From positions 1-25,608 of IMG/VR virus record IMGVR_UViG_3300009285_002253: a stretch of 25,608 bases of DNA. One strand, written 5' to 3'. Below are positions 5,850 to 25,201 of the stretch, in pieces. Position 1 is the first letter of the stretch. The number at the start of each line of letters is the position of its first letter. The position numbers and the translations under genes are program-made. Source of the DNA: a virus. The notes below the pieces were generated by a model. It searched no databases. It was not told the origin of the DNA and was given only the letters and a program-made list of their open reading frames with translations.

Positions 5850-8800
5850 TTACCTAATCAATTTAGTAAATGTCAGCCCTAAATGCTGTAAGGCGAATGT
5901 TGGACTTTCAGCGCTTGAATTTGCATACAGATATAATGTTGTGCCGGTTGGATATTTTATAATACCAGAACCGGCCAAAATATTTATATCGTATGCGGTA
6001 TTTGTTTTAATAGTTCCAGCAACGGTTGACATAGCCGCTTCCGAAGTGCCTAACGTCAAACTATATGTTCCGGATAGGTTGACATCGAATGATGCGGTTA
6101 GAGTAACCATATATGTACTTGAATCCGGAATTGTTATAGAGCCGGTACTACTGTCCGTTGTGAAATCACCTGCGGTAACCGTTCTCCAATTTACTATTGC
6201 GGTATTTGAACCTGCGGCGGATAAATTGGTAACTAGGCTATCGCCCGTAGAATTATCGACATAGACAGAAGCAAATGTTGTTATTGGGCTTGTCTGATTT
6301 AGATTGCAACAAGTATCCAATTCAAGAACAAGGCTATCAACTTTACTTTGCAATAAAGTTGCATTGCCTTCCAATTCAATTACTCTATTTCTTAGAGAAT
6401 CAACAGCGGAATTTAATATAACAAATATTGAATCACCAACAGAATCAATAAATGCGCGCACCCTTGCTATTTGATATTGCATTTCAATTTTGCTTATATA
6501 ATTCGTGCCGCTTATGCCGGTTGTTGATCCACCGCCGCCGCAAGAATAATTGAATACAACGGTATTGCCGTTTTCTATATACGGATCAATACCGCCGATA
6601 CAATCATTTCTGAAATATATATCGCCGCAAATAGGCATCGATTGACCATTGGGCATAATCAACCTAGCGGTGCTGCAAGCGCAGGTGTCCGATATATATA
6701 ATTGAGAAGTATATCCGCCGGATGTTTTAAATTCAATAAACATTGTTGAATCAATTCTTATTGTGTCATACGAATACAGATTTATTATTTGATCGACACA
6801 CGGTATACCCAATTGATTATTCGGCATGTGATACCAGAAAGTATCCACCATCAAAACATTATTTGAAAATGGATCATAACATATCGCCAATCTGTATTTT
6901 TCCGTATAGCAAGCGCTGCCGAAAACACCCCTTGAATGAATGTTCTTCACGCCGCATTGCAGAGTATCGCATCCGAAAAGATTCATCAATGAATCAACGG
7001 GAAACCAAATATATATATCATAGTTTGGATGATATGGCGGCCATGATACTTGGTCATCCCACATGAATTCAGAATAAATTTGAAGTATGTTGCAACTCCA
7101 ACTAAGATTGTGATATGTTACATCATTTGTTTGCGTGTTCAATGTAGCATACCGCATTGGATAATATCCGTGTTTATATGCCGGTGTACCATACGCCGCA
7201 AACGGATTTTTCAAAGTGTCTACGATATAAGGCCAAAGTAATTTCAAACTATCCAAAGTATGCAAACTCATAAATGTGTTTGGACTGGACCAAGGCTCAT
7301 TTCTTGCATACGCATCCACAAAAAATGTTTCAACGCTGTCGATCACGACATACCAAGTATTTAAAGTATTGTCGGCGGGTATTGTGTCATAACCAATAAG
7401 CGTACTGTTGATTATCGGCATCGTTATATATGTCGTGTCGAAATATCCGGGCAATCCCTGTAATATATAGGCCTTTGGGCATTTATATAAACATTTGTCA
7501 TAAGCAATCAACGTGTCGCCGATATAAGAAAAGAATGTGTCGGCATATACGCCGGTTGGAATATTGTATACCGATATGCAAACAACGCTATCTTTCTTGA
7601 CTTTTGGATCATTCGCATAAATAAGGCAATCAACTATTTCCCTTGTGCTGTCAATCCAAAGAGTATTTGTTGGAGACATATCTATCAATTGCATATACAT
7701 AAGTAAAATACTTTTTCTTATACAGCATACCGCCGTTGTATCGCATTTTGTTCCTGTCTCGCATCCTCTAAATGGATAATTCGGATCACCTTCCTTCATA
7801 TTCGCCAACCAATTGCCGGGATTATATTTCCTTATGCAAATTGTTGGGTCATAGCTAGGTTGTATCCTGCTTGTATCGCACGGCAAGCCATACATTTGCC
7901 TTTGTATCTGCCTTATATTGGACATTTGTTCGTCGGTGAATACGGCGAAACTTGTATCTTTTGAAAATATGTTATATCGTGTGCAAACCGTATCGCAAAC
8001 CGTTATCGTATCCGATGGAATCACTTGGATGGATGTTACCCTGCGGAAATATATCGGTATCGTCAAAGTATCTTCGCAGAATTCCGTTTCAGCTTCCGTT
8101 ATGCAGTCCGCCGCATCATAAACAATGGTATCGGGAACATTGACAATTCTTGTGCCGTGTGTTGTATCCGATATAACAACCAATGGCGAAACACTTAATG
8201 TGTCATTTATTATATTTAATGTTGGAATTAGAGAATCAACACCTAATTTTCTATATATCTTTATGCATCCGCTATCTTGGAAAACAAAATTTCCTTTCGC
8301 CGCGCCAAATGTTGTACTATCCCTGTGTATCCTTGCGAATATCGTATCTTTTTCAACCGACGTTGTATCGAATCCAATCAATGCAATGGAATTGCCGAAC
8401 CATGTTACCTTTATCCCGTATGCGGTTTGTATCAAGCTATCTAAAAAATCTTCCGCCAAAACGGCGGAGCTACCGATACTGTCTTTTCGTATGCTATCTT
8501 TTAGAGCTTCACCTAAATCACCCCAATTTATATAACCCCATATATAATCGCCTATGCGTCTTTTGCGTATGGAATCTTTCACAGCTTCCGAAAGTTTTTC
8601 CCATTCGACGGCACTGTCCTTTATACCTATCGTCATTAATTGCACTAAATCATTTGTGAATTTATCCGCCATGAGATTCATTTTATTGGCGCCATGAAAT
8701 ACAGCTTCCTGCTTCAAAATTCCGCCTATGTAAATATCATATAAACCATATTCCAAACTATCTTTGTAATATGTACCGGGCGAATTCACATCTTCAACCA

Positions 8801-8978
8801 AATCAACATATTTCGCCGTATCACCCCATATATACAGGTCAACATCCAAACCGGTAATCGGTATGCCATTGTCATCCCTGATTACCCTTTGGAATATTGC
8901 TTTCAATGTTGTTTGGCTACACAATTCATTGCAACCAAATAATAAAAGCAAAACGATTATTACATACATTCTTTTCAT
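5850..8978 (-). CDS. Exported cysteine-rich tail fibre-like protein with C1q-like C-terminus
   Basis: A 1042-residue protein, last of the tail module. ATG at 8978 has AGAGGAAA upstream. The N-terminus is a signal sequence, MKRMYVIIVLLLLFGC, with a possible lipobox LFGC (Cys16). Cleavage by signal peptidase I after LCS is the alternative. Residues about 22-95 resemble a prealbumin-like beta domain (DNGIPITGLDVDLY). Two related segments follow, LSEAVKDSIRK (129-139) and LGEALKDSIRK (155-165). The middle is beta-rich and unrecognised. I count 30 Cys in all, in clusters such as CDTTAVCC, suggesting disulfides. A coiled coil (about 830-895) leads to a C-terminal beta domain of about 140 residues resembling C1q/TNF jelly rolls, which often trimerise and bind receptors. 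Position suggests a receptor-binding fibre. The export signal suggests a surface adhesin instead. Confidence 0.6.
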   Translation of the reverse strand: MKRMYVIIVLLLLFGCNELCSQTTLKAIFQRVIRDDNGIPITGLDVDLYIWGDTAKYVDLVEDVNSPGTYYKDSLEYGLYDIYIGGILKQEAVFHGANKMNLMADKFTNDLVQLMTIGIKDSAVEWEKLSEAVKDSIRKRRIGDYIWGYINWGDLGEALKDSIRKDSIGSSAVLAEDFLDSLIQTAYGIKVTWFGNSIALIGFDTTSVEKDTIFARIHRDSTTFGAAKGNFVFQDSGCIKIYRKLGVDSLIPTLNIINDTLSVSPLVVISDTTHGTRIVNVPDTIVYDAADCITEAETEFCEDTLTIPIYFRRVTSIQVIPSDTITVCDTVCTRYNIFSKDTSFAVFTDEQMSNIRQIQRQMYGLPCDTSRIQPSYDPTICIRKYNPGNWLANMKEGDPNYPFRGCETGTKCDTTAVCCIRKSILLMYMQLIDMSPTNTLWIDSTREIVDCLIYANDPKVKKDSVVCISVYNIPTGVYADTFFSYIGDTLIAYDKCLYKCPKAYILQGLPGYFDTTYITMPIINSTLIGYDTIPADNTLNTWYVVIDSVETFFVDAYARNEPWSSPNTFMSLHTLDSLKLLWPYIVDTLKNPFAAYGTPAYKHGYYPMRYATLNTQTNDVTYHNLSWSCNILQIYSEFMWDDQVSWPPYHPNYDIYIWFPVDSLMNLFGCDTLQCGVKNIHSRGVFGSACYTEKYRLAICYDPFSNNVLMVDTFWYHMPNNQLGIPCVDQIINLYSYDTIRIDSTMFIEFKTSGGYTSQLYISDTCACSTARLIMPNGQSMPICGDIYFRNDCIGGIDPYIENGNTVVFNYSCGGGGSTTGISGTNYISKIEMQYQIARVRAFIDSVGDSIFVILNSAVDSLRNRVIELEGNATLLQSKVDSLVLELDTCCNLNQTSPITTFASVYVDNSTGDSLVTNLSAAGSNTAIVNWRTVTAGDFTTDSSTGSITIPDSSTYMVTLTASFDVNLSGTYSLTLGTSEAAMSTVAGTIKTNTAYDINILAGSGIIKYPTGTTLYLYANSSAESPTFALQHLGLTFTKLIR

Positions 8979-9922: not shown

Positions 9923-12900
9923 CTATATTTCGATGCCTGAAATGATTACGGATTTATCGGATTCCAATTTTGCCGATGTTGTTATAAAATCCGTTGTACT
10001 ATCTAAATCCACATCGCGCGGATTTAACAACAGATTAAACTTATCCATACATTCAATGTGGAATAGCGGCAAGAGCTTTAGGGTCTCGATAGCCAATCTG
10101 TATTTGTGGTAATATTCGTATTGCACTTCCGCGATTATTTGTGCTATGTATTTATTTTGTACTAACGGATTATCAATTTTCAATACACGTTTCATCCATC
10201 CATCGAAACCGATTTTCCTATCACCTGTATTTTTGTTAAATGGGTTTGCATATTTTACGCTGATCGCATCATAGTAATGTTTCCAGTAACCAATACCGGG
10301 AGTAGACCTTGCAACATTTTCATTAAATGATAATTGTATATTGCCATTCGTCACACCTCTGCGAGCTATCCTGATTTTCCTTTCATCGTGAATTATATAG
10401 TAATAATTCATCATCTGATTTACGAATTGCAATATGTTGCGTATGCTATCCGATTCACTAAATGCGGCAAGTTCAATTCGCGGGTAGAATTCTTTTGCAT
10501 ATTCCCATAGAATAAAATTGACATCTTTTGTTATACCAAATAAATGCCCGGTATCATTGCATGTTATCTGTGTTTGTGCTCCCCAATCTTCAACATCGAT
10601 CACGCCTAAATTATCTATTGTTATTTCATCATTTATTCTGTCGTATGTTGCGCGAAGTAACGCACTAGGTTTATCTTTATATCTAATATTTTGCGATATA
10701 AAATAAACCACATTTTCATCTTTTGCATATTTATGATTCTTGAATAATGCCGTTGTATCATATTCAAAATTATTACCTGCAATAATTGTTGTGTTCATAC
10801 CCGTTGTCGGATTTAACAAATCATATACAAAATATTGCCATTGGAATGGCGATACACCACTATCGGAAGATTTGTTAAAAAATGTGCCATGCAATGTGTC
10901 GCTATCCGCAAGGCATAACCATATAGGCATTAAATGAGATTCCGCACCTGCTGTATTTTCGTAAGAATCCCATAACACAACTTCTGTAATTCCTATTGTG
11001 TTTACTACAGCGCTACCCGATGCAAGTATCACACGTATATAATACAAACTTGCGGAACCATTAACGGAAACTTCCGCCCAATTATTCGGTATATCAAATG
11101 ACGCTATACCATTCGGAAAATTTGGATGTGTTGCATTCGGTACGGCAACCCATGCAGTACCGTTGTAATATTGTATAGCGTACACACCTGCGGGAACGTC
11201 AAATTTAATACTTCTAAACTTGTCTGAATTGCCGATATACATTGCATCCAATGGATTATTTAGCGGATAACTTGCAAGGTTGTTATCGTTATTTGCTTCC
11301 ACTGTAATATCACTATACCCGGCACCACTCCAATACATTACCGCATCCGCATTAATTATTCTGTTGCCGGATAACGCAACTTTTGTAATATATGATAACG
11401 ATACCGCATTATCCGTTGTGTATACACCTTTATCTATCCAATTTGTATGACCAAAATAAATATAATTGTTCGCTTCGTCAATTGCATTGCAAATTGGGAG
11501 CGTAGATTCATTAACATATTCAATGTCAATAAAAGAATCTCCGATAACATCATACATTCTGTAGTAATTATTTAGTGTCGGATCAACCTGCAATTTGAAT
11601 GAATAAAATTCGCCCGTGCTTTTTCTAAATGTGTTACCCTGTTGTCCGTAATCAATTTTCAATTCGAGTTTAGGTATTGGGGCACTTATGCCAGTCTGAT
11701 TCCCGCCGGTTAGTGTTCCCTGTTGCAAACAATAATATCCGGCTGAACTTACATATAATTCACCTTGTTTATCAAGATTTGGTTGTACAATATTATAATA
11801 ATTACCAAGTGAAAAAATCCATTCTGGTCTAATGAATCCAGCATGGAATAATATTGTATACAAATCCGGCATATCATACAAAAATATTGGATCATCAACA
11901 CCACTTGCGGCGTTTAATTTTACATGCAATGTTTGAGGGAATGGCACACAAATATTTTCGCCGCAATATCCGATAGTGCCATATATAGAAGTTATCTCAT
12001 ATTGCCCTATAGCCCTGAAATTTACACCACCACTTAAAGAAAGTTGTCCACCATTGCGTATTGATCTTTTCCCATCATACAAATTTGTTGCAATAAATCC
12101 CGTTCCATTTTCCAAAGTTGCTGTATCGTTGCTTTGGTCGTATGAATATATCATTGAAAAAATGGTAGCAAATTTTATATCTTTGTGTTGCACATCCAAA
12201 AATATTTTTGTGCCGTCAATCCAAATATCTTCTACCGTATATTTATATGATCCCATTGTGTACGGAATTATCTCTGTTATATACTCCCATTTCCCATCAA
12301 AATAACATCGCCACAATTCCAAACCTACCGCTATATATACATATTGACTTGTATAATCTACAACTAATGCACTAGGATTTCTCTCATAATTGTGTCGCGG
12401 AGATTTACCCCATATATTAAATGTCTTTTCGGATAACAAAAGTTTTGTATCCGATAATATTCTTTTATTGCTATAATAGAATGCTTCATTTAATGCAGAT
12501 TCCAGCAATGCGCGGACAGGGATGTTTTCATGCCACCCGCCAAACGCATAATTACCAGCTTTATCTAATTTAATTATCAATTCATCATCGGTATTTTTTC
12601 TAGTCAATAGAGATTGATTAAAATCTATTTCGATGAAGTCATTATCAATACCCCTTACTCTTATTATCCTGCGTATTTCTTTTAATTCAAGTGCACCCGT
12701 TGCGGTAACACGTTTAATTTCTATTGCATACCCTTTGTATTCAACATTACCAATTAATACCGTATTTTTTGTCCAATTTGTAGCGCTACTCCATCGTATT
12801 GTCGGATCATCTTTACTAGTAAAACCTGCTGTATTATCTACCAATCCATTTTGTATACTTGTCATAACGCTTGACATAAATGTATTGCCGCCGGTGCTAT

Positions 12901-14245
12901 AACGAAATTCTATATCCGATGCCGTAAACAACGTACCTAAATCAAATTTAATACCCCAAAATATACTATCGCTAAAGATATACAATTTATCCGTATCGGC
13001 AGCAAGTATTGCAACGCTTGTATAATCGGCATTGATTGGAACATTTGATATATCAGAAATTTCAGTAAGTGTGCCATCATCCGTTACGATAGCGAGAAAG
13101 TGTATCATAATCGCGGTAGCTGTGCCATTGTCAAAAGTTATTGTCGGGCCACCTTGATTATTAATTGCTTTCGAATCGCCATCATTTTTATCACTGTCTT
13201 TTATATTTACCCATATTTCAACATTCGAATCAGGGTAATCATTCAATCCGTTTGCATCGCCGAATTTTACTATTGCATATTCCGTACCGCCATTATCGAA
13301 TAATTGTTGCGTACCTTCGCTATTTATCGTATCCGATATTACAGCGATTTGAACCCATGCCCCATTATCCCATCTGAAATAATGCGGGTATCTATATTCC
13401 AAAATTTTGATACCGGATTTTGTACCTCCGCTAACCCGTTCAATGTCAACACCATCCAATCTTGTATTATCAAATGGTTTATAACTAATCTGTTTAATGC
13501 CAGTACTCGATTCGGAGCTTGGTTCGTATTTCAGGATATTAATACCGCCAATTTTTGGTAAATCAGTATGCGCCGTATCGATAACATTGTATGCCGGGTA
13601 TCTACCCAATTCGAATGTATGCCCGAATGCTTTTATCCTAAATGTTTTATCATACGGATTTGGCATTGTGTCCGTTAAGTCCGTTACAATACCTGCGAAA
13701 TATATTGTCCAATTGTCGCTAGACCCGACAACATACAACATATATTTAACCCAAAACACACCGTCAAAATTATTGAATAATCCGGTATCAGTTTTGTTAA
13801 AAAAATACCCATCCTTATTATCGAAAACTATTGTAATTTCTCCGCTATCGAATTCAAATAAACTAGCGCTTTCTATTTTTTGATCGACGCTTGAAATTCC
13901 GTTCAATGTGAGCTTATCGGATACAGCATATTTTTTCGCTATCGTTGCGCCAATTTCATCAACACTTAATGCGGCAGTCCCTGTTAAAACAATTTCCGTT
14001 GTGTCCGTTAATGCAGTATATGTTATCGTTGTTACCTGTCTTTCAATTTCGAATTCCGTCAAAGGCAATACTGCATAATCATTTATAATAAACAAAGTTG
14101 TAGCATCGCCAGCAACAACAACACTATTCCCTGTCGGCACATCCGTAATTAAACCGGAATATTGTTTATACAATATTACAGCATCACGAATATCTAACCC
14201 GACGTGTTTTTGTAATCGGAGTGTATTTATATTGATACTACGCAC
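9923..14245 (-). CDS. Large tail hub/central tail tip protein, 1440 aa
   Basis: The gene directly follows the tape measure and overlaps it by eight bases. There is no ATG; GTG at 14245 with AAGAGG seven bases upstream is the best start. TTG three bases earlier is possible but sits close to the ribosome site. The N-terminal 220 residues contain a beta-rich tail-protein segment (FEFDSGEITIVFDNKDGYFF). The middle has repeated beta domains, including one resembling discoidin-type modules (YYNGTAWVAVPN). The last 230 residues resemble the hub domain of Tal/gp27-like proteins: a helix around SIRNILQFVNQMM, then a segment with RIARRG, and an IDNPLV motif followed by helices. The gene's length and place suggest that it closes the tail tube and contacts the cell. 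No peptidase or lysozyme domain was recognised. Confidence 0.75.
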   Translation of the reverse strand: MRSININTLRLQKHVGLDIRDAVILYKQYSGLITDVPTGNSVVVAGDATTLFIINDYAVLPLTEFEIERQVTTITYTALTDTTEIVLTGTAALSVDEIGATIAKKYAVSDKLTLNGISSVDQKIESASLFEFDSGEITIVFDNKDGYFFNKTDTGLFNNFDGVFWVKYMLYVVGSSDNWTIYFAGIVTDLTDTMPNPYDKTFRIKAFGHTFELGRYPAYNVIDTAHTDLPKIGGINILKYEPSSESSTGIKQISYKPFDNTRLDGVDIERVSGGTKSGIKILEYRYPHYFRWDNGAWVQIAVISDTINSEGTQQLFDNGGTEYAIVKFGDANGLNDYPDSNVEIWVNIKDSDKNDGDSKAINNQGGPTITFDNGTATAIMIHFLAIVTDDGTLTEISDISNVPINADYTSVAILAADTDKLYIFSDSIFWGIKFDLGTLFTASDIEFRYSTGGNTFMSSVMTSIQNGLVDNTAGFTSKDDPTIRWSSATNWTKNTVLIGNVEYKGYAIEIKRVTATGALELKEIRRIIRVRGIDNDFIEIDFNQSLLTRKNTDDELIIKLDKAGNYAFGGWHENIPVRALLESALNEAFYYSNKRILSDTKLLLSEKTFNIWGKSPRHNYERNPSALVVDYTSQYVYIAVGLELWRCYFDGKWEYITEIIPYTMGSYKYTVEDIWIDGTKIFLDVQHKDIKFATIFSMIYSYDQSNDTATLENGTGFIATNLYDGKRSIRNGGQLSLSGGVNFRAIGQYEITSIYGTIGYCGENICVPFPQTLHVKLNAASGVDDPIFLYDMPDLYTILFHAGFIRPEWIFSLGNYYNIVQPNLDKQGELYVSSAGYYCLQQGTLTGGNQTGISAPIPKLELKIDYGQQGNTFRKSTGEFYSFKLQVDPTLNNYYRMYDVIGDSFIDIEYVNESTLPICNAIDEANNYIYFGHTNWIDKGVYTTDNAVSLSYITKVALSGNRIINADAVMYWSGAGYSDITVEANNDNNLASYPLNNPLDAMYIGNSDKFRSIKFDVPAGVYAIQYYNGTAWVAVPNATHPNFPNGIASFDIPNNWAEVSVNGSASLYYIRVILASGSAVVNTIGITEVVLWDSYENTAGAESHLMPIWLCLADSDTLHGTFFNKSSDSGVSPFQWQYFVYDLLNPTTGMNTTIIAGNNFEYDTTALFKNHKYAKDENVVYFISQNIRYKDKPSALLRATYDRINDEITIDNLGVIDVEDWGAQTQITCNDTGHLFGITKDVNFILWEYAKEFYPRIELAAFSESDSIRNILQFVNQMMNYYYIIHDERKIRIARRGVTNGNIQLSFNENVARSTPGIGYWKHYYDAISVKYANPFNKNTGDRKIGFDGWMKRVLKIDNPLVQNKYIAQIIAEVQYEYYHKYRLAIETLKLLPLFHIECMDKFNLLLNPRDVDLDSTTDFITTSAKLESDKSVIISGIEI

Positions 14246-17200
14246 CAATATACCTCTTATTTGAATTATTTATTGCAGGTACAATATGTTTATCGAACAC
14301 ATTATCCCAATATTTTTGATCGTCAACAACGGCACCATTTATATTTAGGTTTATTACGGGTGCTGTCGTAGAATTCCTGCTGAAACTATCGCTAATTCCT
14401 ACAACGGAATTATTACCGACACCCGCCGTAACAACACCTCTTGTAGTCCCTTCGCCCTTATGCAATTTCGCTGTGCCGGAATCTATGATACTGCCGCCGC
14501 CATTCAAACTTTGCATAATTCTTTTTGGTATAACTACTGTTCCTTTTGGTGTATAGTGTACGCCAGTTTTGGTAATTGGAGTAATCCCACTTGCTCCCAT
14601 TGCGACTTGTTTGTAAAATGCACTATTGCGCCTTGTGACTTGCGCGGCACCTTCCCCGCTATGCAAATTTTGTGCGCCACTTGTTCGTGTTTCGGAACCT
14701 ACAGCGCTACTAAATAAACTTGCGCTAGGTAAAACAGAACCGACACCGCCACTTATTACACTTGTGAGTAAACTGATTATTTTTGATTGTATAAAATCAG
14801 TAACCATTTTTGCTACCATTTGCCTAAATGATTTACCAATATCAGAGAATATATCTTTTATTCTAATCGATGCCAAGTCACCTGATTCCACCCATGAATC
14901 CATGGCACCATCGAATCCCGACATTATCACACCGGAAAAATTGTCTACCCAAAACTTTGTATCGGCACTCATTTCTTCTTCAATTGCTTTTTTATGTTCG
15001 CGCATATCGCGCATAGCTTCCAAATATTCAATACTTGTAGCGCCGTGCATTGCCGCAATTGTATCAAGTTTTGTTTGTAGTAATGCAGTCATTTCAGCAG
15101 CTTGTGCTTGCCAGTCTGACATATTATCTACAGCTTTTGCTTCTTCCATTTTCGCGGTAATTATCGCTATACTATCTTCCAAACCTTTCAATATTTTGTT
15201 ATCATCGGAATTAAACAATTCGTCAATCTCTTTTACCCTACCCATTAATGCCATATATTCAGCTTCGAATGCCAACCCATTAGCGCGTAGCGCATCCATT
15301 TTCAATACGAGCATAGCGCGAAATTGATTTAATTCATCTTTGTTTATTTGTTCTCCACTCTTTAACATGTTGAATTGTTTATCTATTGCTTTATCTATAA
15401 ATTCTTTTTCTATATCATCCATTTCTTTTTTGTGCCGCATCGCTTCCGTTTCTTTTTCGTTGTTGAATATTTGTTCAACTTTTGATAATTCAACATTACC
15501 TTCCGTTGCTGTTTTAATTCGCTCTTGATTTGCTTTTGTAATCTGTGCCATGTTCAATGCATTTTCAGCTATCGCAATGGCCTTGCGTTTTTCAAGTGTT
15601 TCGTTGCCTAGAGCTTTCAATCTTTCTAATTCTGACTTTGCAGCATCTTCACCAATTTTATTTGCAGCATCCGCTATCTGTCGTTGCTCTTCCCTTTGTT
15701 TGTCGGCTTGCGCTTTTCTTTCAGCGGCAGCTTCGGCATTCGCTTTTTTTCTTGCTTCATCAATTCTTGCCTGTTCTTCAATTTCTTCATCCGTTAATGG
15801 CACTTCACCACCATCTTTTTTCGCATCGGGTTTATTGTTTATTTCTTTTAATTTTGTTTGAGATTCTTCCAATGTTTGCAAGCTCTGTGCGTATGTATTC
15901 GCGGATACGGCAGCTTCCTCATATTTCGCGGCAATTTGAGACCATATTGCAAGTTCCATTTGAGCACCGCCCTTATCACTGTCTCTTTTCCCTTCGGCTA
16001 TATCAAATTGCACTTTTCCCGCCATTTCAGATGCTTTTGCAGCCATATCATTTAATTCATCAATAACCTGCATTTTCCCGCTTCTTATATCGCTAATTAA
16101 ATTCGGAAACATATCTTTTATTTCAAAAGTTTTTGAACCCAAAATCTTTTCACTCGATTGTATAGGCACCTTTGCAAATTTATCGAATACATATTGCAAT
16201 CTACTTATACCGCCTTTCACTTTTGCAATATTCGATTCCATGTTATCAGTTATTATACCTTCTAATTCATCCATTGATTCCCGCATACTTTTGTTTGCGG
16301 AAGTTATATTCATTTGCATTTCGGAGCGGGCAAGTGTTTTTTGCCTTTCACTTAATTTACCTAATTCTTGTTCAGCTTTTTTACCGGCAAGTGCAATTTG
16401 ATCTACAGCACTTGCATAATCCGATGTTTTGCTAATTATATCAGGATACTTCTGTCTCATTTCATCATGAATTGTTTGCATTCTTTTTTCTTGTTCTTCA
16501 CTTCTATTCTGTGTAGCGGCAAGTGTTTTATATTCATCCGCCATATCCTTGATAGACTTTTGATATTTAACTTGTGTATTCAATGATTCTTTTTGCCGTT
16601 GTATACCTTTGGCCATTGCTTCCATTCTTCTATCTTCGGCACCCATTAGCCACATTGTACCTGCCGCAAGTGCCGCAATAGCCGCAATGGTTAAACCGAC
16701 CGGGCTAAGCAATGCGGACATTGCAGTACCTAATACACCAACACCTGCCGTTATAGCGGGTAGCATACCCAACAATAAAGACAATGGCCCAACAAACCCT
16801 AATACGGCAGCAGCTATTACAGCTATTGCGGCGATTGCCGTTTTAATGCCCTTCGGCATAGCGTTAAACCATTGTACGACAGATTGTATAGTTGCGATTA
16901 CACTACGCAAAACAGGCACTAGCGCCGTACCGAATTGTATAGCGGTCTCCTGTATAGCGGATTTCAAAATTTTCATCGCACCTTCGAAAGTGTCAACCTG
17001 CATCGCGGCCATTGACGTTGCTTTATTCGTACCGGTAATTTGATCTTCGAATTTTTTGAAACCTTCTGCACCTGCATTCAACAAAACTTTCATTGCGGGT
17101 GCCGCGCGTTTATCGAATATCGTAGCAAGATCGCCCATTGCTTTTTTATTACCCATTCCAGCTTTGGACAATTTATCTACGATACTAATTAAATCATTGT

Positions 17201-17993
17201 TTACCGGGCTAACATCTTCCGCCGTTAAACCATATTTTCTTAATGCTTCTTCCGCCATTTGTGTAGGTTTCGCAAGAGCTAATAATGACTGACGTAGATT
17301 TGTACCTGCCTGACTTCCATCGATACCGGCATTATATAACAAACTTGCGGCGGCGGTTGCCTGTTCAATACTTATACCAAATGCATTTGCAACAGGCCCG
17401 ACATACTTCATTGTTTCGCCTAACTTCAACATCGTTGCTTGTGATCCTGAAATGGATGCTGCAAACAAATTGCTAACCCTGTCAGCTTCCTCCGCTTTTA
17501 ATTGGAATGCCGATAAATTAGATACAACAATTCTTGTGGTTTCAGCTAAATCATATTGTGTAGCGGCAGCTAAATCGAGCGTACCTTTTAATGCTCCCAT
17601 AGTTTGCTCTACATTCAAACCCGCCGATGCCAAATAATACATTGCATCGGCAGCTTCACTAGCAGAGAATACGGAAGTCTCGCCCATCTTTCTTGCATAG
17701 TTAGTCAAGATTTGCATTTCGGCAGCAGTAGCACCCATTACACTACCCGCATTAGCCATTGATTGTTCAAATTGGCCAAAGGTTTTCATTACCATATAAC
17801 CAAGCCCAACAATCGATGCACTAATACCCGTTGCTATTTTACCAAACTTCTTTAATTCGGCAGAAGATGATTTTATTTCAGCAACACTATTTTGTATAAT
17901 GTTTTTCGTTTCGCCAAACGCTTTACGCAATTCGTTAAAATTAGCGCCAATGTTTACGAATACTCCAAATGTTTTGCTACCACCTGCGCCCAT
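14238..17993 (-). CDS. Tail tape measure protein (TP901 core family)
   Basis: A 1251-residue protein with the TP901-type tape measure core at about 80-365, including phrases typical of the family (GETSVFSASEAADAMYYLA, AGIDGSQAGTNLRQ, IFDKRAAPAM). A hydrophobic alpha-helical stretch lies at about 384-450, probably the part inserted in the host membrane during DNA ejection. A long charged coiled-coil region follows (about 455-960), with clusters rich in Glu, Lys and Arg. ATG overlaps the upstream stop by one base (TAATG), and AGGAG lies about nine bases upstream. The protein fixes tail length and occupies the tail lumen. At about 0.15 nm per residue, a known rule for siphoviruses, the tail would be roughly 185 nm. 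Chaperones encoded just upstream keep it soluble. Confidence 0.95.
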   Translation of the reverse strand: MGAGGSKTFGVFVNIGANFNELRKAFGETKNIIQNSVAEIKSSSAELKKFGKIATGISASIVGLGYMVMKTFGQFEQSMANAGSVMGATAAEMQILTNYARKMGETSVFSASEAADAMYYLASAGLNVEQTMGALKGTLDLAAATQYDLAETTRIVVSNLSAFQLKAEEADRVSNLFAASISGSQATMLKLGETMKYVGPVANAFGISIEQATAAASLLYNAGIDGSQAGTNLRQSLLALAKPTQMAEEALRKYGLTAEDVSPVNNDLISIVDKLSKAGMGNKKAMGDLATIFDKRAAPAMKVLLNAGAEGFKKFEDQITGTNKATSMAAMQVDTFEGAMKILKSAIQETAIQFGTALVPVLRSVIATIQSVVQWFNAMPKGIKTAIAAIAVIAAAVLGFVGPLSLLLGMLPAITAGVGVLGTAMSALLSPVGLTIAAIAALAAGTMWLMGAEDRRMEAMAKGIQRQKESLNTQVKYQKSIKDMADEYKTLAATQNRSEEQEKRMQTIHDEMRQKYPDIISKTSDYASAVDQIALAGKKAEQELGKLSERQKTLARSEMQMNITSANKSMRESMDELEGIITDNMESNIAKVKGGISRLQYVFDKFAKVPIQSSEKILGSKTFEIKDMFPNLISDIRSGKMQVIDELNDMAAKASEMAGKVQFDIAEGKRDSDKGGAQMELAIWSQIAAKYEEAAVSANTYAQSLQTLEESQTKLKEINNKPDAKKDGGEVPLTDEEIEEQARIDEARKKANAEAAAERKAQADKQREEQRQIADAANKIGEDAAKSELERLKALGNETLEKRKAIAIAENALNMAQITKANQERIKTATEGNVELSKVEQIFNNEKETEAMRHKKEMDDIEKEFIDKAIDKQFNMLKSGEQINKDELNQFRAMLVLKMDALRANGLAFEAEYMALMGRVKEIDELFNSDDNKILKGLEDSIAIITAKMEEAKAVDNMSDWQAQAAEMTALLQTKLDTIAAMHGATSIEYLEAMRDMREHKKAIEEEMSADTKFWVDNFSGVIMSGFDGAMDSWVESGDLASIRIKDIFSDIGKSFRQMVAKMVTDFIQSKIISLLTSVISGGVGSVLPSASLFSSAVGSETRTSGAQNLHSGEGAAQVTRRNSAFYKQVAMGASGITPITKTGVHYTPKGTVVIPKRIMQSLNGGGSIIDSGTAKLHKGEGTTRGVVTAGVGNNSVVGISDSFSRNSTTAPVINLNINGAVVDDQKYWDNVFDKHIVPAINNSNKRYIGA

Positions 17994-21371: not shown

Positions 21372-21728
21372 TTATCGCTCACGTATTGTATCAGGGTTCA
21401 ATATTCTCAAAGAATCTTGTTCAGCTTTTATTCTCGCAGCTTCCCTTGTCTTTACTGTTTCAATGATCGGGTTTACTATCGCCCTTTCAGAAGTATTCAT
21501 TTTTTCGATAGCATCAATATTCCTGCGCTTGACAACTTCGGCAGCTTCGGATAAATGATTTTTTGTTGCTTCCAAAAGTTTGTCATCCAACCATTTTTGA
21601 TAATCAACACCATGCGCTTGTAACATTATTGATTGCTGCGCGGTTGTCAGTGTTACAGATACCGATTGCGCATTCATATTTATAACACACATGATAAGCA
21701 AAACAAATGTAATTAGTAGTGTTTTCAT
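21372..21728 (-). CDS. Exported small helical protein with signal peptide
   Basis: A 118-residue protein with a classic Sec signal peptide (MKTLLITFVLLIMCVINMNA, cut before Gln21), the pattern common in Bacteroidota. The mature part of 98 residues is helical and charged, with many Lys, Glu and Arg (YQKWLDDKLLEATKNHLSE, REAARIKAEQDSLRILN). It contains no Cys. ATG has AAGGA about ten bases upstream. It sits between the 61-residue membrane peptide and the head-tail connector, so it is in the same operon as virion genes. An exported helical protein could be a spanin-like lysis protein, a superinfection exclusion factor or a periplasmic chaperone, but there is no motif to decide. Confidence 0.7.
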   Translation of the reverse strand: MKTLLITFVLLIMCVINMNAQSVSVTLTTAQQSIMLQAHGVDYQKWLDDKLLEATKNHLSEAAEVVKRRNIDAIEKMNTSERAIVNPIIETVKTREAARIKAEQDSLRILNPDTIRER

Positions 21729-21956: not shown

Positions 21957-22500
21957 GGCGTCATTTCCTTATTCTGATGTATGATAGCTTTCGTCCGTTG
22001 TCTCCGTAAATCGTGAGCGTGTTCGCCGCGAAGACATTGCTCCACGGGTGTATCGTGGGCGCTGTCGTGCCGCCGATGTACGATACCGCGATCACGTCCG
22101 TAGGCAGTACTCCCGTTACAGTCACGGTGATGGAGTCGCCAGCGTCCGCCGTAACTTGAGCCGCGAGCGTTTGCCCGTTTGGATTAAGTACGCCCGAGGT
22201 GTCGTCTATGGCCTCGGTGTACACAAGAGGCGTTTTCACAGCCACTTTTGCCTTGATCGTGGAATCACTTATGAGGTTACCGGCAAGTTCCAGTCTGTTT
22301 GCCGGATCAATTATACCAATTCCGAACGCCCCCCACGGAGTCAAATGCATATCCGTAACGCTCCCCCCTACGCCGTGTTTCCAGTATTGGCCGGATAGAG
22401 AGTTAAACGATAACTTGTTGCTAGTCACGTATTGCATACCCACGCTCGTGCTGGTGCCAACATAGCTGCTCGAAAGCAGGAACGTCCCTGCATCAAATAT
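21790..22500. other. GC-rich island covering fibre tip and 61-aa gene
   Basis: Counting by hand, bases 22021-22200 are about 61% G+C and 21841-21900 about 58%, against about 35% at 23041-23100. The shift covers roughly the last 180 codons of the fibre gene and the whole 61-residue gene. It fades towards 22500 on one side and ends near 21790 on the other. This is typical of horizontal replacement of a receptor-binding segment. Confidence 0.75.
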
Positions 22501-24255
22501 AGTTGCATTCATATTTGCCGCGACAATATTTCCTGCAACGTACAACTCACTCAACATTGTCACTGGTTTATATATAGTTATCGAATCTCTTTTAAGCGTA
22601 GCACCCGGCGCAAATAAGATACTATCTTGATTTATATACACGCTGCCATTGACCGACAAACTATATGCGGGCAGGTCATAATTGATACCAAAATTACCTT
22701 TCTCACTGAATGTTAAATCATATGAGCCATTATTTACTTTAAAAAATGCTCTATTATTCAAATAACCATTTCTCTTTTCGGTATCACCTACATAAAGACT
22801 GGTGCTGCCGCTAGAAATGTCATATGGATTATCTGAATAAATTGCCGTGTAATTGCCGGAATCTGCGGGATTGGTGCGGTAAAAATACATTTGCGTATAA
22901 CTGGGCGCTTTCAAGTTCATATATGTTATCGAATTAAATGCCGCAGGATCAAATGATAAAAATTCATAGGCATCTTTTCTGAAACTAAATTCACTGCCTA
23001 TTTTTTTCAATGCAAAAGTTGACCCCAATTTCAATGAATCAATTGCTATATATTTTGCGGTTACCGTACTATCAATTTTCAAGTTGCCCGCAATTTCAGT
23101 TTTATTCGCAGGGTTCAATACTCCAATACCTAATTTACCATCTTTTGTTAATGTCACATCATCAGCATCGCCCGCTATATTATTCGCCGATAATATAACT
23201 TTTCTCGCACCCAATTCTGAACCAAACAAACCCACTCCTCCATTAGGCGCAGCAGCATCACTACCAACAATATCAAGACGTGTTGCCGTTGAATATAGAA
23301 AATTACCATCCCATCCGTCACCCAACATCATAACAAAAAATGAATTTTTTCTTGCAAAATCTATTTGTTCATTGGTCAATTGCATTTGTGTATGCCAAGG
23401 AGTAACGAAGTCTTTTATATTAACACGGTAACTACCATCGGCACCAGACATTGTTACCACCGAATATGCTGTGTCGGGCACTTCCGCAAAACCTATTTGC
23501 GGCAATACTATATAATCAAACATACCGCCATTCGCAGATACCCAACCATTGGCATCAATTCTAAATGCCAAAGAATCATCAACATTTTTTGGTACTATCA
23601 CATCATAATTGCCATCTGTATACCTATTCCAACTGCCAGAGTTTGCAATCTCTGTTTCCAATGTATCAATTTTCAAAAGTAAATATCTAGCAATTGAATC
23701 TGCTATAAAAATAGAATCACCATACGCATGGCTTAACGCTGCTGACAATGAAACAAGATCAAGTGTTATTCTTTTTGGAAATGTTGTAGAATTGATTGTA
23801 AAGTATTGCGATAATTCCAATGAATCAAATGCATAAGTATTGCCAAACGAATCTTTAATCTGCAATACCGGCACAGCTATTATATATTGTGTAGCAAGTG
23901 CCGTTGCTCTTGTATATGATTCAAGCGACATTGTTGCGACATTGCCTATAATAACATCAACGGGTTTTTCAAAGCCCAACACATCCGGTCCTTGCAGTGT
24001 TACCGTTGAATTGCGCCAAACCTTAAAGCGTATATACCCATTCGTGTTGCTTGTATCGCATCTTTTTGGATATGCAATAAGGCCATTCGATAATTTTGTT
24101 TTAACAACACACAATGCCGCATTTCTTGCCGGTTGCAAATCTTGGCCATACACATAGCCATATAATATGCATGAATCTGCGGGATTCAATTGCGCGTATC
24201 CGTTATTAAACAAAAAAACGAATAACAAAAAATATATATAACTGATTTTATTCAA
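21961..24255 (-). CDS. Exported tail fibre-like protein, 764 aa
   Basis: The best start is TTG at 24255, since AGGTG lies five bases upstream, exactly as for two neighbouring genes. It yields a complete signal peptide (MNKISYIYFLLFVFLFNNGYA, cut before Gln22). After it comes a domain (about 30-115) resembling carboxypeptidase-regulatory or prealbumin folds (ILYGYVYGQDLQPARNAAL). Helices near 185-205 follow. The C-terminal half has three related modules with G..GIG...PAN...E.AGN, at about 373-391, 520-538 (weaker) and 642-660, a pattern common in phage fibres and metagenomic fibre proteins. Copies one and three also share DST..AK. The last 180 codons are GC-rich. Location inside the virion operon suggests a receptor-binding fibre; the signal peptide is unexpected. 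Confidence 0.65.
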   Translation of the reverse strand: MNKISYIYFLLFVFLFNNGYAQLNPADSCILYGYVYGQDLQPARNAALCVVKTKLSNGLIAYPKRCDTSNTNGYIRFKVWRNSTVTLQGPDVLGFEKPVDVIIGNVATMSLESYTRATALATQYIIAVPVLQIKDSFGNTYAFDSLELSQYFTINSTTFPKRITLDLVSLSAALSHAYGDSIFIADSIARYLLLKIDTLETEIANSGSWNRYTDGNYDVIVPKNVDDSLAFRIDANGWVSANGGMFDYIVLPQIGFAEVPDTAYSVVTMSGADGSYRVNIKDFVTPWHTQMQLTNEQIDFARKNSFFVMMLGDGWDGNFLYSTATRLDIVGSDAAAPNGGVGLFGSELGARKVILSANNIAGDADDVTLTKDGKLGIGVLNPANKTEIAGNLKIDSTVTAKYIAIDSLKLGSTFALKKIGSEFSFRKDAYEFLSFDPAAFNSITYMNLKAPSYTQMYFYRTNPADSGNYTAIYSDNPYDISSGSTSLYVGDTEKRNGYLNNRAFFKVNNGSYDLTFSEKGNFGINYDLPAYSLSVNGSVYINQDSILFAPGATLKRDSITIYKPVTMLSELYVAGNIVAANMNATIFDAGTFLLSSSYVGTSTSVGMQYVTSNKLSFNSLSGQYWKHGVGGSVTDMHLTPWGAFGIGIIDPANRLELAGNLISDSTIKAKVAVKTPLVYTEAIDDTSGVLNPNGQTLAAQVTADAGDSITVTVTGVLPTDVIAVSYIGGTTAPTIHPWSNVFAANTLTIYGDNGRKLSYIRIRK

Positions 24256-24299
24256 CGTCGCACCTGTCAAAAATTCAAAAGTTAGAATTGTTTTGTTTA

Positions 24300-24407
24300 T
24301 TACCGCTTCTTACTGCGCCAAATAAAATAAATACATGCAACGATTACAAAAAATCCACCTACATACATTGCTGCCGTTGTTAATGTATTCACTGTTGTTT
24401 GTTCCAT
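24300..24407 (-). CDS. Small single-span membrane peptide, 35 aa
   Basis: ATG at 24407 has AAGGTG five bases upstream; a longer reading from 24542 overlaps the previous gene without a ribosome site. The product is MEQTTVNTLTTAAMYV, then a single membrane span (about GGFFVIVACIYFIW), then a short basic tail RSKKR. The tail predicts N-out, C-in topology. At 35 residues it is among the smallest credible phage membrane proteins and could be a pinholin-type or accessory protein, but small size forbids confident assignment. It immediately precedes the fibre gene, which itself carries an export signal. Confidence 0.6.
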   Translation of the reverse strand: MEQTTVNTLTTAAMYVGGFFVIVACIYFIWRSKKR

Positions 24408-24456
24408 GATTGCACCTTGTTTTAATTCGTTTTTAATGTGTTGGAAATATACTACC

Positions 24457-24477
24457 GTTATTATGTATTGTAATAAC
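24457..24477. other. Small AT-rich hairpin after the 239-aa gene
   Basis: GTTATTA (24457-24463) and TAATAAC (24471-24477) form a perfect seven-base-pair stem with a seven-base loop, five bases after the stop of the 239-residue gene. It is AT-rich and lacks a T-run, so it is a weak candidate for 3'-end processing rather than a strong terminator. Confidence 0.3.
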
Positions 24478-24481
24478 AATG

Positions 24482-25201
24482 CTACTTTGTTTTCCTTTTT
24501 AGGAATGCATCGACAGTATTTTTTGTTATATACAATTGGCAAACGTTTTTCGGTTTGCCACCCTTGACAACATGCTCTTTTAGGATTGCTTCTTTTGTAA
24601 ATCCAATTTTTACCAATCTTTCAATTCTTGCTTTGTCCGTTGTAAATAATTGCATATACAACTTTCTAAAAGAATAATCATCTTCATTCGGTTTTAGAGC
24701 TTGCACCGTTGCCGCTTTAACTATTGTAGAATACAATTTCATATCGTCATCGAATTCCGGTATGACATTCACATCCAATTTAATTGTGCCATGATAGAGC
24801 GAATCTATTATTAATTCTACAATACCCAATTCTTTTTCAGTGCCAAGTACATGCGCGATATACGCATCATATTTGTTTTTTTTGCTATATTCATTTGCAT
24901 ACCAATCTTCATTTTCTATTTCGGTTATTTTCCTGTCAGTGAATAAGTGCCGCATGGCTACTGGATGTGATTTTGTTTGCCTATAAAATTCCAAATGCCG
25001 CAGCACAAATAAATCTTTTGCAATGTGTTTTAGTTCCATGTTAGCGCCTGTTTTTGTTGTCTTGCGTAAAAAGTTTTTTGTCGTTGTATGTAATTTGTTT
25101 ATTGGCTGTGCTACAATTAGCGGCATGTATTTTTCTTCCGGCACTTCATTCGCCGGATGCAAGCTAATTGTTTTAATGTTGATTACCGTTTTGCGTGACA
25201 T
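24482..25201 (-). CDS. Hypothetical protein, 239 aa
   Basis: Unrecognised. ATG at 25201 has AGGA about seven bases upstream. An internal ATG at 25042 (codon 54) is another option with a weaker AGGCG, so the first 53 residues are uncertain. They look unstructured and basic. The remainder is mainly helical and mixed in charge (VLRHLEFYRQTKSHP, AYIAHVLGTEKELG). The last 40 residues (RIERLVKIGFTKEAILKEHVV) have a pattern like a small DNA-binding helix-turn-helix, with a basic C-terminus (FLKRKTK), but this is not decisive. The gene starts four bases after the glycosyltransferase-like stop and is followed by the 35-residue membrane peptide. It could be a scaffold, a small terminase subunit-like or a regulatory protein. 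Confidence 0.6.
   Translation of the reverse strand: MSRKTVINIKTISLHPANEVPEEKYMPLIVAQPINKLHTTTKNFLRKTTKTGANMELKHIAKDLFVLRHLEFYRQTKSHPVAMRHLFTDRKITEIENEDWYANEYSKKNKYDAYIAHVLGTEKELGIVELIIDSLYHGTIKLDVNVIPEFDDDMKLYSTIVKAATVQALKPNEDDYSFRKLYMQLFTTDKARIERLVKIGFTKEAILKEHVVKGGKPKNVCQLYITKNTVDAFLKRKTK

Follow-up and report, generated by a model that had tools for sequence, protein, structure and literature searches.

The gene at positions 5850-8978 (minus strand) of the window, the whole 25.6-kb stretch of viral DNA analysed here (GC 37%), encodes a protein that, by homology of its first domain, belongs among known tail fibres and lies where a fibre gene is expected, behind the tail genes. On balance, we read it as a true tail fibre that probably leaves the cytoplasm by the Sec pathway, matures in the periplasm and only there or later becomes part of the virion.

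Gene order in the window

The recognised genes of the window all lie on the minus strand. Along this strand run connector genes, a tail-tube-type protein, the tape measure, a 1441-aa tail protein, a 299-aa gene and 5850-8978, followed 3' on the same strand by a 147-aa gene, a helicase and further genes. The position of the fibre gene behind the tape measure and the large tail protein bears out the initial annotation, which had placed it at the end of a tail operon without naming a strand. The features discussed below are as follows (a slash marks a predicted cleavage site).

14238-17993, minus: tape measure protein (PF10145, E 1e-44; PHROG tape measure, E 1e-102)
9923-14248, minus: large tail protein, 1441 aa, probable hub or tip, without a signal peptide, upstream of the fibre gene
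5850-8978, minus: signal-peptide-bearing tail fibre, 1042 aa, 30 Cys, called from the ORF and the homology of its N-terminal domain to prophage fibres
8916-8978, minus: predicted Sec signal of the fibre, residues 1-21, cleavage LCS/QTT, alternative lipobox LFGC16 (rule-based scan)
8589-8915, minus: N-terminal fibre domain, residues 22-130, in a family with four Bacteroidota prophage fibres (profile homology)
6540-8267, minus: Cys-rich middle with recurring CDT motifs and 26 Cys, residues 238-813 (sequence)
6312-6497, minus: helical, coiled-coil-like stretch, residues 828-889, then CC (sequence; weak profile matches)
5853-6293, minus: putative C-terminal C1q/TNF-like jelly roll, residues 896-1042 (low-confidence model)
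21961-24270, minus: second signal-bearing protein, 769 aa, fibre-like, repeated G.G...PAN..E.AGNL, signal NNGYA/QLN
21372-21728, minus: third signal-bearing protein, 118 aa, probably helical, signal NMNA/QSV

Family searches with the large tail protein gave zero matches, homologue searches with it and with the connector returned nothing useful, and the tape-measure relatives have none of the other window genes. A small protein with a single membrane segment, encoded at 24300-24542, is possibly holin-like; no endolysin was recognised among the window genes searched against families.

The fibre protein

The fibre ORF starts with ATG, about 8 nt downstream of an AGAGGA-type ribosome site. Before the first domain, ATG occurs only at codons 1 and 4, and TTG at codons 10 and 19. 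Because codon 4 is the only other ATG in this region, the hydrophobic N-terminus should be translated, and a mis-called start was thought unlikely on the same ground. Contamination or an annotation artefact was rejected, given the shared strand and operon, the ribosome site and a homology that starts at the signal boundary.

The 30 Cys in 1042 residues counted previously are present in this frame. Cys content is 2.9%, compared with 0.8% in the other window genes (P ~7e-9). Predicted cleavage would leave 28 of these residues, of which 26 fall in the Cys-rich middle and the remaining two form the CC at 890-891. The coiled coil proposed at first is retained in part: a helical stretch is found at about 828-889, but the coil-type profile matches are weak (E 0.012 and 0.05). 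The C-terminal 147 aa gave an all-beta model of low confidence (pLDDT 53), whose Foldseek matches to ExsFA, the C1q head, BclA and TNF ligands agree with the C1q-like end domain suggested earlier. The helical stretch and this end domain are thereby candidates for the trimerising stem and the receptor-binding tip of a fibre. Structure prediction of the first domain from its single sequence was uninformative (pLDDT 34).

Direct queries with the full-length protein recovered no homologue from Pfam, NCBIfam, PDB sequences, IMG/VR, phage records or genome contigs, and its matches to PHROGs are weak and partial. A relationship to Cor, a small exported superinfection exclusion protein, would call for full-length homology; the match is confined to residues 1-28 (E 0.16) and this candidate was rejected.

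Predicted signal peptides in the window

All signal calls reported here are rule-based (hydrophobic core, residues at -3 and -1, and +1). The fibre begins with MKRMYVIIVLLLLFGCNELCS followed by QTT, a Sec signal with predicted cleavage after residue 21. The n-, h- and c-regions of such a signal are present in MKRMYVIIVLLLLFGCNELCSQTT, and the basic n-region, hydrophobic core (mean 4.1), Leu at -3, Ser at -1 and Gln at +1 correspond to a Q-rule SPI site. The signal sequence with a possible LFGC lipobox described initially is thus recovered by the rule-based call, and there are two possible sites, SPI at LCS/QTT or SPII at LFG/C (Cys16).

Two further signal genes, and the +1 Gln that they share with the fibre, had been overlooked in the initial annotation. 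One encodes the 769-aa fibre-like protein, which has a weak match to a cyanophage tail fibre. The other encodes the 118-aa protein, which lies between the fibre-like gene and connector genes and could be a lysis or fibre-assembly factor. As controls, none of 142 internal Met starts passed as a Q-type signal and shuffled N-termini did so at a rate of 0.8%, whereas three of the 22 window genes pass (P ~7e-4). Gln at +1 in all three window signals is the "Q-rule" of Bacteroidota signal peptidase I, most of whose substrates expose a Gln that is cyclised (PMC5837995). The three Q-rule signals point to a Bacteroidota host for the window virus and, since they agree with one another, favour SPI over SPII for the fibre.

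A cut by SPII before Cys16 would instead yield a membrane-held lipoprotein active in phage exclusion or lysogenic conversion. LFGC is lipobox-like, suitably placed and overlaps the signal, and the lipoprotein exclusion factors known in phages provide a precedent. However, F at -2 is non-canonical for the lipobox [LVI][ASTVI][GAS]C, and the fibre has the Q-rule site too. Moreover, the two sister signals of the window and the signals of two homologous fibres have a Q-rule site and no lipobox, and the protein opens, past its signal, with a fibre domain and is encoded behind tail genes. The lipobox reading of the fibre signal, as far as these motifs tell, is weaker than that of a Q-rule SPI site, and we regard a lipoprotein as unlikely.

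First domain and prophage fibres

A search of 395 Bacteroidota genomes gave a single weak match, located in a prophage where the matching gene follows the hub, and a follow-up two-row profile then retrieved further matches. In four prophages, G417 (L144), G523 (L145), G188 (L146) and G478 (L133), the fibre gene starts with this domain and is placed behind a hub gene and an intervening short gene (150-173 aa where complete). Within the domain, G417 and G523 are 44-46% identical to G188, and the window fibre ~42% over 67 residues; the homology of the window fibre to other fibres spans ~110 residues only. The G188 fibre, which has no signal, matches PHROG tail-fibre families (best E 1e-39). Together, the first-domain homology and the place behind the hub argue that the window gene belongs to the tail-fibre family. 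Profile A2 found no relative in IMG/VR, and profile A3 over 391 genomes gave one doubtful extra match only.

A signal stands immediately before the domain in two of the four prophage fibres and is absent from the other two. The G417 fibre begins with MKLKIILLVLLLSFLALG followed by QTSTYV (cleavage FLALG/QTSTYV) and that of G523 with MKRILFIIFFIASIAAA followed by QTSSYV (cleavage ASIAAA/QTSSYV); at the same boundary, the window fibre has LCS/QTTLKAIF. The G188 and G478 fibres open with the domain itself, MATSKF. The alignment of the homologous fibres begins at the mature end, directly past the signal. By this comparison, members of this fibre family may have or lack the predicted signal, which where present directly precedes the first domain.

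Signal-bearing tail-end proteins in virions

In three otherwise unrelated Cellulophaga phages, phi10:1, phi19:1 and phi39:1, 2-5 genes in a row at the tail end encode proteins with Sec signals. In phi10:1, all of gp091-095 have Q-rule signals and gp091-094 are noted in GenBank as experimental MS/MS structural proteins. The same note accompanies the Sec signals of phi19:1 gp101-104, of which gp104 lacks the +1 Gln, and of phi39:1 gp25-26. Under the same signal rules, 10 of the 11 signal-bearing tail-end proteins of these phages thus have MS/MS virion status, which is second-hand, being taken from GenBank record notes. As a pattern, the combination of Sec signals with presence in the virion is well supported in Bacteroidota phages. 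By sequence, the same signal pattern is seen in phi19:3, phi46:3 and Nekkels_1. PHROGs classes phi10:1 gp093 (L038:44100-46433, phrog_11548) as moron/auxiliary metabolism, yet GenBank notes it as an MS/MS virion protein.

Residues 17-275 of phi46:3 gp083 are 85% identical to residues 541-799 of phi17:2 gp049, which has no signal peptide, and the match starts right behind the gp083 signal. Since related fibre modules occur with and without it, the signal seems to determine where the protein is sent rather than how it folds.

Of the 16 distinct N-terminal types that carry a signal, window and prophages included, 15 have Gln at +1, in line with what is known of Bacteroidota SPI substrates (P ~4e-10 against a generous background of 0.2, a value that is indicative, the set being drawn partly from Q-seeking scans). 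This bears on whether the hydrophobic N-terminus of the fibre is a working signal at all, or instead escapes cleavage and has a role in the virion or in folding of the fibre. Such proteins do occur in the virions of other phages, and the cytoplasm is the known assembly site of tailed phages; but if no cleavage took place, nothing would be expected to maintain the Gln, some homologous fibres lack the segment, and the alignment starts at the mature end. An uncleaved N-terminus therefore appears improbable.

The virion records bear likewise on the proposal that the protein is an adhesin exported onto the infected or lysogenic cell and never part of the virion. Lambda lom, whose exported product is encoded among tail genes, is a precedent. 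A study of Porphyromonas phages reads their Q-rule genes in this way (PMC10367356). Against this, similarly built tail-end proteins are noted as virion components of three phages, and behind the window hub the receptor-binding candidates are the fibre ORF and otherwise the 299-aa gene only. In addition, searches for type IX secretion domains found no outer-membrane secretion signal: no NCBIfam or Pfam sorting domain matched the C-terminus of the window fibre, and the comparison proteins were unmatched too. We consider such an adhesin quite unlikely. Of the options offered initially, joining the virion outside the cytoplasm is thus the better supported, through the prophage fibre family and the Cellulophaga MS/MS notes, and the exported surface adhesin fares worse for want of a type IX domain.

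Signal-bearing fibres are a minority, and many Bacteroidota loci depart from the pattern: no clear large fibre with a signal was seen in the tail modules of 40 tape-measure loci from Bacteroidota genomes, nor in those of phi38:1, phi12:1, phi14:2 and phi17:2. Few Cys are present in most of the other fibres that carry a signal, so export cannot generally be explained by disulfides. An unrelated P2-like contig encodes, behind a gene-D-like tail gene, a 431-aa protein (L028:9038-10333) with the signal GLS/QAEF, 16 Cys and collagen-type repeats, apparently an independent signal-bearing, Cys-rich fibre. In Bacteroides Hankyphage p00, a 128-aa gene product (L034:20053-20439) has a Q-rule signal followed by membrane segments, and its gene adjoins the lysin gene.

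Proposed assembly route

If the window gene encodes an exported fibre, its preprotein would be passed to the host Sec translocon and cut by signal peptidase I before Gln22, which host glutaminyl cyclase would convert to pyroglutamate. The Cys-rich middle could then oxidise in the periplasm; its 26 Cys would suit an oxidising compartment. Head and tail core would be assembled in the cytoplasm as usual. As no type IX secretion domain was matched, the exported fibre should stay periplasmic until lysis, and it would meet the tail tip, along with other exported components, most likely during or after lysis. Given that virions contain similarly built proteins, it is simplest to suppose that fibres are kept in the periplasm and attach to the tail tip when the cell lyses. 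Long tail fibres of T4 and tailspikes of P22 can be attached in vitro, which makes late attachment plausible. We infer cleavage, disulfides and the time and place of joining from these considerations.

More broadly, assembly may take place in two compartments in some tailed phages of Bacteroidota, with head and tail core made in the cytoplasm, receptor-binding fibres processed in the periplasm by Sec, SPI and glutaminyl cyclase, the two united at lysis, and the signal gained or lost as a module. We judge this general scheme to be about as likely as not. Textbook tailed-phage assembly is cytoplasmic. If the scheme is true for some Bacteroidota phages, their fibres must be able to attach beyond the cytoplasm, and Sec, SPI and glutaminyl cyclase of the host would count among the assembly factors of the phage. 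Fibres rich in disulfides could then exist, and annotation of genes of this kind as morons, of which phi10:1 gp093 in PHROGs is an example, would mislead.

Comparison with known systems

Signal peptides have been noted in the Bacteroides phages phiBrb01 and phiBrb02 (PMC5723332), and one sentence mentions them for lyase proteins of Nekkels and Ingeline (PMC8776804). In the open-licence papers covered, no earlier link of phage signal peptides to virion assembly was found. The Nekkels and Ingeline proteins resemble the window fibre as large phage proteins with signal peptides, and Nekkels gp53-55 fit the pattern; the lyase account, in the part consulted, differs in making no statement on virion assembly (PMC8776804). 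Similarly, the Porphyromonas gingivalis "Nixviridae" have phage genes with Q-rule signal peptides. However, these five genes, given no assigned function there, were suggested to modify the outer membrane and were not placed in virions (PMC10367356), unlike our reading of the window.

The prophage fibres of G417, G523, G188 and G478 share with the window a homologous first domain right behind a hub and a 150-173-aa gene; they differ in that two have no signal and in their bodies and tips, which are lyase-like in G417. For the Cellulophaga tail-end proteins, no sequence homology to the window fibre was found; they are mostly Cys-poor and in several cases have pectate-lyase domains, but they are like it in their tail-end position, their mostly large size and their Sec signal.
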